This document shows, piece by piece, positions 12,875 to 41,073 of a stretch of 64,000 nucleotides of DNA. The stretch covers positions 806,001-870,000 of the forward strand of contig NZ_OCMZ01000002.1 in assembly GCF_900215485.1 (NCBI RefSeq), given 5' to 3'. Within the stretch, counting starts at the first letter, position 1, and each line of letters opens with the position of its first letter. This DNA is from Nitrosovibrio sp. Nv4. Its GTDB lineage: Bacteria; Pseudomonadota; Gammaproteobacteria; Burkholderiales; Nitrosomonadaceae. The notes under the pieces were generated by a model that had not been told where the DNA came from, did no database searches, and worked only from the letters and a program-made list of their open reading frames with translations. Position numbers and translations under genes: made by a program.

Positions 12875-13393
12875 TTACGCAGACTGGAAGGCTGCCCGAC
12901 AGTGATCAAGTGCCTGGTGGATCAGGATGTTGACCAGGGAAGTCGAGATATCCAGCTCTGCGGCAATTACGCGATGAGTTTGCCCTTCAAGGCGATGAAG
13001 CTCAAAGGCACGCCTCGTCCGTTCAGGCAACTCGGATATTGCCTTTGCGATCAGCGTCAAATGTTGACGACTGATTACAATAGCCTCGGGGGTTCCCATG
13101 AGAGATGGAACGTGCAGTCCTTCGTCTTCGTTCTCAAAGAGATTCATTTCCAGAGCTGCGCGTCGATGATGATCAATCGCCAGATTGCGAACCATCTGGA
13201 ACAGATACGCCAGCGGTTGCTTGATATCAAAAACCGCCGCGGCCTCGCAGACTTTCAAGTAGGCATCCTGTACGACATCCTCGGCACGTTCCGGATTGCC
13301 CAGAATCTTCAGTGCCGCCCAGCGCAGCTGCAACCGATGAGCCATGAACACGTCGCTTAACTCAACCTGCTTCTCAACAATCATCTCTGCCAT
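12875..13393 (-). CDS. FecI/PvdS-type ECF RNA polymerase sigma factor
   Basis: 172 residues, typical ECF length. Region 2 contains LGNPERAEDVVQDAYLKV and the -10-contact segment AYLFQMVRNLAIDHHRR. Region 4 contains LPERTRRAFELHRLEGQTHRVIAAELDIS, a helix-turn-helix, then LVNILIHQALDHCR. Sigma factors of this group (FecI, PvdS, OrbS) drive iron-uptake and siderophore genes and are normally repressed by Fur. A Fur-box-like sequence lies 22 bp upstream of the ATG, supporting that scheme. The gene precedes the FecR-like stub and the NRPS/PKS operon on the same strand, which makes it the obvious candidate activator of that operon. The specific regulon is inferred. Confidence 0.92.
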   Translation of the reverse strand: MAEMIVEKQVELSDVFMAHRLQLRWAALKILGNPERAEDVVQDAYLKVCEAAAVFDIKQPLAYLFQMVRNLAIDHHRRAALEMNLFENEDEGLHVPSLMGTPEAIVISRQHLTLIAKAISELPERTRRAFELHRLEGQTHRVIAAELDISTSLVNILIHQALDHCRAAFQSA

Positions 13394-37793: not shown

Positions 37794-38500
37794 ATAAAAA
37801 CTGAAAGTCAAACAACGCCAAAATAAAAATTATAACATGCATGGGCAGCGGCCTTATCCTGCTTATGCAGAAGTAGTCCGGCAAACTCTGAATCCCTGAT
37901 TTTTCGCTCAGTGCCAGCAGTTCCTCGCCATTCTCTAGACATCGAAATCATAATACCGAGCATCCCAACCTGGCACATCATCCATTACGCCTCCATGATA
38001 GCGTCCAGAAATTCGAACGGCAATGAATTCTAGGTCTGAGAGCACAGTGAGATCCAGTCAAAACGTTATCGGCCTCGGTCCGGCGCCCATCGGCGGCACG
38101 CTACGACTACTTGCAATTTGCCAATGGTAATATTGCCCAATGATTTCTTTATGCAATGGATTACTGCCTGCACAGCCCGCAATGCTACAAGAACGTCTTT
38201 ACGGCCAAGTATGCGAAAAGGGACAATCAAAACCGGCTTTCCGACGTATAGCACAGGAATTAATTAAGATTTAATCACAATTCTAATTGCTGCTAATGGC
38301 TAATGGGGCGTTACGTCCCGAATCGGTTAAAAATTATCTGGAATATGCCATCTGAACATAATGCGCTTATGCAGTTGATACGGCAGATTTGGATGGGATT
38401 TTTAACAACATGCCGGGCTATATTTGCTGCTTCTGCTGCTACGCGTGACTCCGCCCCTGTGTTTGGCAGAGGGCGGAGCGGTCACAGCTACAACCGAGAC
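37794..38500. other. ~700-bp region without recognisable genes
   Basis: Between ffs and amoC (both minus). AT-rich in parts. Short open frames exist on both strands (for example 38066-38254) but I recognise no family and see no ribosome binding site. The 3' end carries the amoC-proximal hairpin listed separately. Confidence 0.5.
38445..38485 (-). terminator. Stem-loop downstream of amoC
   Basis: On the plus strand CTCCGCCC (38449-38456) and GGGCGGAG (38471-38478) form an 8-bp GC-rich stem with a 14-nt loop, extended by GTGA/TCAC. It begins 16 bp after the amoC stop. It lacks a T-run, so it may terminate weakly or protect the transcript 3' end. Confidence 0.45.
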
Positions 38501-39319
38501 TTAGATAACGTCATCTAGAATGGCTCTACTTTGGTTATTCCACTGCACATCCAGAAGATTCGAGAAGCGTGCGATGATTTGTACTGCAACACCACCCGCA
38601 AACAGAGCCGCCCAGGCCAATACCACGAAGCCCCAGTGCAACGGTGCACTGAAGAGTTCTTCCATGAACCAGAAGGCATGTCCCCATTCGTTAAGACCCA
38701 CGTTCGGCAGACTCATCAGCGGGCCGGCAATAGCCATCACCAGGGGAAACGATGTGCCTTTTGCATATAGCGGTAACCTGGTGGTTGCATACAGAAGAGA
38801 CGCAACGCCCATGATGATATACATCGGGAAAGAGCCATAGAAAAGTGGAATATGGCTTGGCGTGAAACTGGTATCACGAATGATCACCTGATGCCATGAG
38901 GCGTCTTGCTCAGTAAAGAAACTTGACCCCCAATACACAGCGAACAAGTAAACACCCAGCCACATGAGGAAATAAAAGTACCGTTTGATTTCCTTCTTCA
39001 CCGGTAAGTTGGCCAGCTGCTCCTGGGTATCGCGCGTCTTCCATACCCAACCCCATACAATCAGCGCTACAACGGGCCAGAGCATCATTTGAAATCGCCA
39101 TAGACCCATCCAGATTTGTTCAAACTCGGGCTCCATTGAGTCCATTCCGTGGGAATAGGCATAGGTGCGCTGGAACCAGACCCAGAATATTGCTATCCCC
39201 AATATGGGTAACAGTCCCAATTTGTAATACTTCGAGTCATACCATTCCGATATATCGTAGGAGGTAATATTTGCCTTCGCTTGATCTACCGCTTTGTTAC
39301 CAAGTGTAGTTGTTGACAT
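38501..39319 (-). CDS. amoC: Ammonia monooxygenase subunit C (solitary copy)
   Basis: 272 residues, normal for betaproteobacterial AmoC. It opens [32 protein letters not shown] and has about six membrane helices, with [43 protein letters not shown] (Asp/His residues of the membrane copper site region) and [14 protein letters not shown]. AmoC is a subunit of the copper enzyme oxidising ammonia to hydroxylamine. The ATG at 39319 has GGAG at 6 nt; an in-frame TTG two codons earlier is less likely. No amoA or amoB lies within 18 kb or more either side in this window. Ammonia oxidisers are known to carry such singleton amoC copies, and in Nitrosomonas one has been tied to stress recovery. Confidence 0.97.
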
Positions 39320-39371
39320 CGCCAACTCCTATTTTAATCAAAGACTTACGAACTAATAAAAATATATATAA

Positions 39372-39414
39372 ACTACCAGTTGAATTTAGATCAAATAAAT
39401 TTCAATATGGTTCC
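39372..39414 (-). repeat. amoC leader repeat, copy 1 (proximal)
   Basis: 43 bp on the minus strand starting GGAACCATATTGAAATTTAT and ending CTGGTAGT, 53 bp before the amoC ATG. A sigma-70-like pair TTGATC and TATATA with 18-bp spacing overlaps its end, so it probably contains or borders the amoC promoter. Similarity to copy 2 continues ~20 bp past the repeat (TTTAT.TAT...TTTTTAT). Confidence 0.65.
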
Positions 39415-39464
39415 AGGATTTCTTCGGTAGCCACCGGGTTCCCACTCGGGATAATGAAAACCAT
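39402..39464 (-). CDS. Putative 20-residue leader peptide in amoC upstream region
   Basis: ATG preceded by AGGAG at 6 nt, the best-spaced ribosome binding site of the region and close to that of amoC itself (AGGAGTT..CGATG in both). The peptide MVFIIPSGNPVATEEILEPY ends inside repeat copy 1. It may be a translated leader, or a relic start left by duplication of the amoC 5' region. No homology is recognised. Confidence 0.35.
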   Translation of the reverse strand: MVFIIPSGNPVATEEILEPY

Positions 39465-39502
39465 CGTAAACTCCTGTGAGGTTGATAAAAATTAATACAT
39501 AA

Positions 39503-39544
39503 ACTACCAGTTCAAATTAGACCAAATTAATTCACAAAAGTTCC
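39503..39544 (-). repeat. amoC leader repeat, copy 2
   Basis: 42 bp starting GGAACTTTTGTGAATTAATT and ending ACTGGTAGT. It aligns with copy 1 with one indel and with copy 3 with none. It lies 39 bp before the ATG of the 20-residue frame. TTGGTC and TATGTA at 18-bp spacing form a weaker promoter-like pair. Confidence 0.65.
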
Positions 39545-39616
39545 GGCTGCGCGATCGGCAATGACCGAACGGTGACTCTTTTCTTGTAACCCGTAATTTC
39601 CAATTGTCGTTATCAT
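39527..39616 (-). CDS. Putative 29-residue frame resembling the amoC N-terminus
   Basis: ATG preceded by AGGAG at 7 nt. The predicted start MITTIGN resembles the AmoC start MSTTTLGN, and the flanking DNA (AGGAG..AAC.ATG) is also similar. The remainder is unrelated to AmoC. It is most easily read as the decayed 5' end of a duplicated amoC; a functional leader peptide is possible. Confidence 0.35.
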   Translation of the reverse strand: MITTIGNYGLQEKSHRSVIADRAAGTFVN

Positions 39617-39666
39617 TTGTTAGCTCCTGTTCGATAATCAAGAAATACCTGTATCGTCCCAAAGGG

Positions 39667-39708
39667 ACTACCAGTCCTCATTCGACTCAGCCTCTTCAGT
39701 AAAGTTCC
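39667..39708 (-). repeat. amoC leader repeat, copy 3 (distal, diverged)
   Basis: 42 bp starting GGAACTTTACTGAAGAGGCT and ending ACTGGTAGT, the same length as copy 2 with matches concentrated at both ends. It lies 51 bp before the ATG of the 29-residue frame. The AT-rich promoter-like part is not kept. Confidence 0.5.
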
Positions 39709-39928
39709 CTGTGCATGCGGCCTGGGTAACTTGGAATCATATCTTGCGAGGACTTGTCCAGTGGTGGTCCATATTCATTCGGCAGAGTCTCTCTGGTCGA
39801 GTGTCATCCCGCAGAGCTACCGAGGTCATGCATTAGATGGAATTCTGCCCCGTGCGTCTCCCCTGGCTGGCCTCTAATTATTAACTTCATGACGAAGTAG
39901 AATTTGATTCCTGGAAAAGGTGCGGCCG

Positions 39929-40070
39929 ATGAAGAAGCGATTTTTTTGGCAAGGAACAGATTATTGGATTTTTTGAAGGAAGCAGATATGGACATGCGGT
40001 TAAGTTGTGCCGCAAGCGTGGTTTTTCCGATGCGTCCTATTACAAATGAAAAGCAAAGTATGGCGCCATG
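39929..40070 (+). pseudogene. IS3-family transposase OrfA remnant
   Basis: Starts ATGAAGAAGCGATTT (MKKRF). After a one-base shift the frame reads KEQIIGFFEGSRYGHAVKLC, then RKRGFSDASYYK, a stop codon, KAKYGAM. Intact OrfA proteins of IS3-type elements read EEQIIGFLKEA..., LCRKHGFSDASYYKW, KAKYGGM, so this copy has at least one frameshift and a Trp-to-stop change (TGG to TGA). No OrfB or terminal inverted repeats are recognised nearby. It is an old insertion relic between amoC and the initiator tRNA. Confidence 0.8.
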
Positions 40071-40468
40071 GTAGTCTGCTACCAACCTGCAAACCAGAAT
40101 GCTGCTGCGCTATGTGGCTCATTCCTGGGAGCAGGTCACCCTAAGAAAACTCTTGTTACAAAAAAACTTGTCCAGAAGAGATTGGCAGATACAGGTTGAG
40201 TGGATAAATTGGCATAGGGACGGTCCATTGGACTTCGCTATGCCACACCATCGGCATGCGCATCTGCGCGATTCGAGAAGATGAGGTCATGAGAGGGAGA
40301 ACTCCAGGGCGCGAAAACTCGCCACACTCCGGTCACCCTCATGCAGATGCACTTCGTTTCGTACGTGGATTCAACTTACGGCTGGACTTGCGCTCGCAAG
40401 AGTGCGTCCCTGCTGGACGCATAAGAAAAAAGCCACTGATCACGTTGATAATCAATGGCTTAATGACC

Positions 40469-40545
<77 letters not shown>

Positions 40546-41073
40546 TCAGAGGGGGCAATTATATAAGGAGAGTGTGCCAAGGTCAAATATTATTCCGGTG
40601 CAAGCTCTGGTCGAGGCAATTTCTTTGGGGCTAACCTCAGACATTCTACAGGTGCCTTTTGATAAAGGTTTTCCTATTTTAGTTACCGGAGCAGGTCTCG
40701 CAATGATGTAGAAAATGAGTATTCCATATATCATCCCATCCGGGTTTGTATAAGTCCTCCATAAGTATCTGGATGGCTCCGGCATTGTGCTGTTGGGAAA
40801 ATCGATTTCTCTGGACAAGCTCGCCTACAGAACCGATGAGCCACATCTTGGAGGAATAGAATCGCTTCCTGTTTTTCTTATGAGAGTTAGCGCACAGAGG
40901 CACACGCAAAATAGCGGCAAAATATGCGCGTTTAAAGCGTGCGTGTCTGAATATCGAACAGGACTCCCTAAAATTCGCTGTTCTCTCAGGCAATTGACCT
41001 GGTTAAGCTCAGCAATATGCCGAGTATGGTTAGGTTTGAGGGGCAGTTTGGTCCGGATGAATATGCAAACAAT

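Follow-up and report, generated by a model that had tools for sequence, protein, structure and literature searches.

The locus

The window, by which we mean the whole 64-kb stretch analysed here, carries on its minus strand a divergent solitary amoC gene, preceded by a leader with three repeated elements and two small open reading frames (Table 1). The product was matched by Pfam AmoC (PF04896) with 433.6 bits and is 99% identical to an AmoC from Nitrosovibrio sp. Nv6. It is encoded by one of seven amoC genes in a genome of 3.27 Mb (hereafter G000). By eye, no amoA or amoB was found among the listed frames around the gene, which is a divergent copy outside the amoCAB operon, as amoC3-type stress amoC genes are. 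In an AmoC tree with a poorly resolved backbone and a root set for drawing only, the window's AmoC lay on the side of the solitary copy of N. europaea; three other copies from G000 formed a group with 100/100 support on a long branch (0.48), and the window's AmoC fell outside it.

A dnaX-like frame follows amoC, as judged by eye, in the window, Nv6, Nsp11 and G001. Upstream of amoC, a tRNA-Met gene is present in the window, in Nv6 and in G002; the stretches from Nsp11 and G001 yielded none. An Rfam scan of positions 38300-40700 returned only tRNA at E values up to 1, ruling out a known RNA family for the leader. Sigma-70 promoters were likewise rejected, as the three predictions within 38250-40400 all lay on the plus strand and shuffled sequences gave 3.4. 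The one terminator-like site (38810-38798; 2.1 in shuffles) is located inside amoC, and a terminator between the repeated units was thus discarded as well.

Table 1. Features of the divergent amoC gene and its leader (positions in the window)
Feature	Position	Strand	Description
Divergent solitary amoC	38501..39319	-	272 aa; 75% identical to the genome's six other AmoC copies
Element 1 (P1)	39667..39708	-	42 nt; -35 GGAACTT 39708-39702; spacer 16; -10 TCGAA 39685-39681; dyad ACTGGTAGT 39675-39667
Unit 1 5' UTR, amoC-type leader copy	39617..39666	-	AGGAG at 39628-39624; from leader shuffle comparison
Small frame 1	39527..39616	-	29 aa, MITTIGN...; stop within P2 spacer
Element 2 (P2)	39503..39544	-	42 nt; -35 GGAACTT 39544-39538; spacer 16; -10 TCTAA 39521-39517; dyad ACTGGTAGT 39511-39503
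Small frame 2	39402..39464	-	20 aa; stop within P3 spacer
Element 3 (P3)	39372..39414	-	43 nt; -35 GGAACCA 39414-39408; spacer 17; -10 TCTAA 39390-39386; dyad ACTGGTAGT 39380-39372

Sigma-E-like sites in the amoC leader

A preliminary description of this DNA had noted three elements of 42-43 bp upstream of amoC, each followed 39-53 bp later by AGGAG and an ATG, only the last of which opens amoC. The coordinates agree with this account: an ATG preceded by AGGAG lies 50, 38 and 52 nt past the end of ACTGGTAGT in elements 1, 2 and 3, respectively, and the ATG that leads the gene recognized as AmoC is the last one. An automated repeat finder linked elements 2 and 3 only (87% over 38 nt). Each element begins with a match to the -35 sequence GGAACTT, which is complete in P1 and P2 (7/7) and partial in P3 (5/7), followed after 16-17 nt by a -10 of the TC(N)AA type. 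The sigma-E motifs of Salmonella are given as GGAACTTTT and GTCAAA (PMC1804206). The window's elements share with sigma-E promoters of E. coli and Salmonella, such as those of rybB and micA, the GGAACTT -35, a GTC(A)AA-type -10 and a similar spacing (PMC1804206); they differ in their tandem triplication and in a conserved dyad at the predicted start, and their dependence on RpoE is putative.

Sigma-E-like sites were called with a simple score and a cut-off of 9.5. At this threshold the 420-nt leader contained three sites, compared with a mean of 0.046 in dinucleotide shuffles, and 0/5000 shuffles reached three. Both strands of the entire window held ten such sites, including the three in the amoC leader, and the only two that scored at least 10.5 were both in this leader. 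The pattern GGAAC-N25-35-ACTGGTAGT matched three times in the 3.27-Mb genome, each time in this leader (reversed control, 0), so that a dispersed repeat was ruled out. With the shorter end, GGAAC-N25-35-ACTGGTAG, the reversed control in the same genome climbed to 2; over the genus, this pattern matched 26 times in 17/23 genomes, fewer than the 63 matches of the reversed control, and was thus not enriched, with 12 of the 26 preceding divergent amoC genes. Of the patterns built on the promoter boxes, GGAACT-N16-18-TCTAA had two matches in the genome, one being P2 and the other lying in the leader of a further solitary amoC (reversed control, 7). In 23 genomes from the genus GGAACTT-N16-TCTAA turned up twice, as the P2 of this locus in G000 and in G018 (control, 13). 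Since its count over the 23 genomes is below the control, the latter site is rare rather than enriched, and support for it comes from its position. The looser GGAACTT-N16-TCNNA gave eight matches in the genome against seven in the reversed control; among the six outside the amoC leader no RpoE regulon could be recognized, and no sigma-E-like site was found at the rpoE locus.

RpoE itself is encoded in the genome (TIGR02939, 325.1 bits; cut-off 236.15), and the gene is followed by RseA- and RseB-like frames, as assigned by eye. A second, weaker ECF-sigma-like match to the same model (32 bits, below cut-off) lies on the minus strand of the window at 12911-13306.

As to similarity between the repeats and other amoC leaders of the genome, the exact repeat occurs nowhere else, but a separate sigma-E-like site stands in the leader of a second solitary amoC (L002). 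This site, GGAACTC-N17-TCTAA, is found at about 1391-1450 of L002 and is followed at the expected start by a strong palindromic hairpin (GGCGGAATGCATTCCGCC).

Distribution and conservation among relatives

Searching 23 genomes of the genus at E values up to 1e-144 yielded divergent amoC genes in nine of them, with 11 copies in total; an additional one in G002 is cut by the contig end. Three sigma-E-like sites were present in each of four genomes: G000, G018 (sharing the Nv6 leader), G001 and G021 (sharing the Nsp11 leader). G002 and G020 have two in tandem, and G004 and G006 (sharing the Nl7 leader) have one. Repeats are therefore kept in relatives, the lack of which had been named beforehand as an observation that would speak against the triplicated leader. 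Scans of the 11 divergent copies detected no site in four of them (the second copies of Nv6 and Nl7, Nl18 and Nl12), where a poorer one, GGAA(C/T)T-N-16-TCTTC, was visible by eye. The dyad accompanies every site in G000, G018, G021, G001 and G002, with the variant ACTAGTAG in unit 1 of Nsp11; in G020 it occurs at the proximal site only, and in Nl7 without a promoter. The -35 of P2 is weaker in Nsp11 and G001 (CGAACTA). The AmoC tree paired G000 with Nv6 and Nsp11 with G001. On its poorly resolved backbone these pairs were not joined, and the four bearers of the triplet did not form one group; the single origin of the triplet that we infer hence rests on the aligned blocks.

Alignment of the G000 and G001 leaders revealed identities of 35/42 (83%) in P1, 34/42 (81%) in P2 and 35/43 (81%) in P3. 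Outside the blocks, identity was 67, 50 and 47% in the UTRs, 43 and 56% in the small frames and 38% in the DNA before P1. Pooled, 104/127 block positions were identical versus 149/262 in the remaining leader (Fisher p = 5e-7). When the block pattern was slid circularly along the alignment, 4/410 registers were as good, all of them at most two bases off the true one. For the near pair G000/G018 the pattern was not clear, with 95, 83 and 91% in P1, P2 and P3 versus 73-86% between blocks. The three elements are thus conservation islands between distant relatives and are not distinct between near ones. Taken together with the sigma-E consensus fit at all three elements, these islands support the stacked promoters envisaged in the preliminary description.

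Small frames and origin of the repeats

Both small frames have a good AGGAG. In the window and in Nv6, each ends within the promoter block that follows it. Frame 1 showed 43% identity between distant relatives and is wholly different in Nsp11; its stop is lost in G001, where reading continues into frame 2. Ratios of pN/pS for frame 1 were 0.37 (first 18 codons, G000/G018) and 1.34 (G021/G001), and for frame 2 0.64 (G000/G018) and 0.51 (G021/G001), each calculated from few changes. Conserved leader peptides, which had been offered as one meaning of these frames, were rejected as unlikely in view of the poor frame conservation, the stop loss in G001 and the lack of clear purifying selection. The small frames are, on this comparison, probably not functional peptides.

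A different kind of frame was noticed in the leaders of divergent Nitrosomonas amoC genes (L019, L020, L022, L023, L024 and L035). These share a conserved 36-aa frame, ending NCPKS(D/N)F..KPDW, that sits between a sigma-E-like site and amoC and exhibited a pooled pN/pS of 0.32 (15 pairs of six sequences). The one such frame that was tried had no Pfam match. In Nitrosospira, a hydrophobic frame of 25-29 aa (MMKVGKLLALSYF... type) recurs upstream of divergent amoC at L014, L016, L017 and L018.

With regard to origin, the assumption that the leader had been duplicated was supported by the 87% repeat of P2 and P3, by the likeness of the distal 5' UTR to amoC-proximal leaders and by the series of three, two and one sites among relatives. 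The 5' UTR of unit 1 in Nsp11 agreed with the Nl7 leader at 27/31 bases (0/500 shuffles as good). The corresponding UTR of G000 was matched by at most 1/500 shuffles in comparison with four of 16 leaders (G020, Nl7, G004 and L014; uncorrected) and gave p = 0.012 against the operon leader L005 of its own genome; it failed against several of the 16, its own unit 3 among them (p = 0.058). The resemblance of the unit 1 UTR to amoC-proximal leaders indicates that leaders including the ribosome site were copied. The unit 2 UTR was like no amoC leader in this shuffle test (lowest p 0.102 in G000 and 0.058 in G018).

A likeness between the distal frame and the N-terminus of AmoC, also proposed earlier, did not hold up: the protein shuffle gave p = 0.11, and the DNA comparison p = 0.0035 in the window's genome and 0.0975 in its nearest relative. 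Across the small frames, the best protein p per frame versus AmoC ranged from 0.027 to 0.18 (six targets, uncorrected). That the small frames are decayed amoC coding sequence is unproven. Elsewhere in the genome, at about 1207-1362 of L003 and in the identical L004, we observed a 51-aa frame that resembles a truncated AmoC N-terminus (0/2000 shuffles as similar). It has its own leader with a ribosome site and is followed by an intact amoC; Pfam AmoC did not match it.

The dyad at the predicted start

The sequence ACTGGTAGT is self-complementary (ACU-GGU-AGU) and starts 5-7 nt past the -10. For its analysis we aligned 12 typed units, omitting unit 1 of Nsp11 (ACTAGTAG), units 2 and 3 of Nsp11 (identical to those of G001 over that stretch) and the promoterless copies of Nl7 and G004. 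A five-pair stem was 93.3% paired over these units; 5/500 shuffles reached its covariation score and 18/500 its percentage paired. The two outer pairs had changes on both sides, but a control slide of +1 likewise gave two pairs changed on both sides and is thus weak, and the number of further pair types was no better than in shuffles (458/500).

Predicted hairpins were weak in the window's own genome, with -1.9 kcal/mol for unit 2 and none for unit 3; at P1, the fold found was a CCC/GGG hairpin and not the dyad. Leaders of the N. europaea type have a stronger hairpin in the dyad's place (-7.0 kcal/mol; 4/200 shuffles as good). Stem-loops after the predicted start were also scanned in 81 distinct amoC leaders, 28 of which had a sigma-E-like site (best site each). 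In 16 of these 28 the fold beat 95% of mononucleotide shuffles; the other 12, including units taken from Nv6, Nsp11, G001 and G020, fell short. A role of the dyad in RNA stability is a guess. In three amoCAB leaders of the same genome (L005, L006 and L007) we saw by eye ACTGGTAGC, which differs from the dyad element by a single base, some 290 nt upstream of amoC; this eight-base match could be due to chance.

Interpretation

We consider it likely, with moderate confidence, that the three elements form a tandem array of sigma-E (RpoE, ECF-type) promoters, each with a start-site dyad, which provide nested stress starts. In this reading, the gene is a stress-type, divergent and solitary amoC whose promoter and 5' leader were duplicated repeatedly, the copies being retained by selection. 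When the envelope is stressed, or when cells leave ammonia starvation, RpoE would initiate transcripts close to ACTGGTAGT in each of the three units. These nested transcripts, with three different 5' ends, would all extend into amoC and hence give a stronger or more graded supply of the AmoC variant. Just past each -10, the dyad may fold into a small stem-loop at the 5' terminus and so delay decay of the mRNA, and the small frames between the promoters would be by-products of copied start codons. The layout of the elements, their copy numbers, the conservation islands, the homology of the leaders and the presence of rpoE are direct observations. The use of RpoE is proposed because of the consensus match; this step, the activity of the starts, the graded output and the role of the dyad are what we infer from the letters of the DNA. 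Weighing against the proposal are the unenriched site pattern with neither a recognizable regulon nor a site at the rpoE locus, the indistinct islands between near relatives, the weak dyad hairpins and the tree that leaves the triplet bearers apart.

It is possible, though doubtful, that duplicated amoC genes decayed into the small frames and that the array is a tandem amoC relic which carried the promoters along. The amoC-type leader in the distal 5' UTR and the frame with its own leader before an intact amoC in L003/L004 are in line with such an origin, but the AmoC likeness of the small frames is weak, at the DNA level the nearest relative does not share it, and the 51-aa frame goes unrecognized by Pfam AmoC. 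This reading bears on origin only and is compatible with tandem promoter copies. If instead one unit alone were a live promoter and the others duplication relics heading to decay, the weaker P2 -35 in Nsp11 and G001, the GGAACCA and 17-nt spacer of P3 and the absence of islands between near relatives could be understood; we regard this as unlikely, because the three blocks are conserved about equally between distant relatives (81-83%) against 38-67% around them.

The frames could also be regulatory leader peptides acting by attenuation or translational coupling, given the AGGAG of each, the position of both stops in the promoter block that follows (window and Nv6), and the conserved 36-aa frame in amoC3-type leaders of Nitrosomonas. 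The divergence of frame 1, its lost stop in G001, the few changes without clear purifying selection and the lack of a terminator between units make this very improbable. GGAAC is a common -35 of ECF sigma factors, and the genome contains two weaker ECF-like matches, one of them in the window. An ECF sigma factor other than RpoE, or sigma-32, must thus be weighed as the user of these promoters; a review gives sigma-32 and not sigma-E for amoC3 (PMC6311188). The -35, spacer and -10 jointly fit RpoE, judged by the motifs in PMC1804206, and we find a different sigma factor quite unlikely. Beyond tandem RpoE promoters as such, promoter copy number might be an evolved dial, with one, two or three cassettes before the stress AmoC in Nitrosospira, and ACTGGTAGT a new amo-specific start-site element that, as RNA or DNA, governs how long the transcript lasts or serves as the target of a dedicated regulator; we put this forward as a speculation that is rather unlikely to hold.

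The closest known counterpart is amoC3 of N. europaea, a divergent amoC without nearby amoA or amoB. Berube, Samudrala and Stahl (2007) and Berube and Stahl (2012) reportedly described a sigma-E-like promoter from which this lone gene is switched on as cells recover from starvation, and the mode of action proposed here is in keeping with that. The N. europaea copy (L024) has one upstream site, TGAACTT-16-TCACA, compared with three in the window, and combines it with the conserved 36-aa frame and the stronger start-site hairpin, whereas the frames in the window are unconserved. In E. coli, the ompA mRNA is stabilized by a 5'-terminal stem-loop. The window's dyad resembles it in its place at the predicted 5' end and in the changes on both sides of its outer pairs, but the hairpin is weak in the window's genome. 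The literature searched, with most subscription journals outside its coverage, contained no account of a triplicated or sigma-E-type amoC leader in Nitrosospira. A sigma-E-type promoter of an amoC3-like gene is of an already known kind; the tandem triplication appears to be new.

The reason why ammonia oxidisers retain divergent solitary copies of amoC has yet to be settled. That the promoters are preserved in the form of three islands argues for selection, in part of Nitrosospira, on strong or graded expression of this subunit under stress. The series of leaders with one, two and three sites represents a natural strain set for measuring the effect of each added promoter, and stress control of nitrification may be tuned via promoter copy number in some soil ammonia oxidisers.
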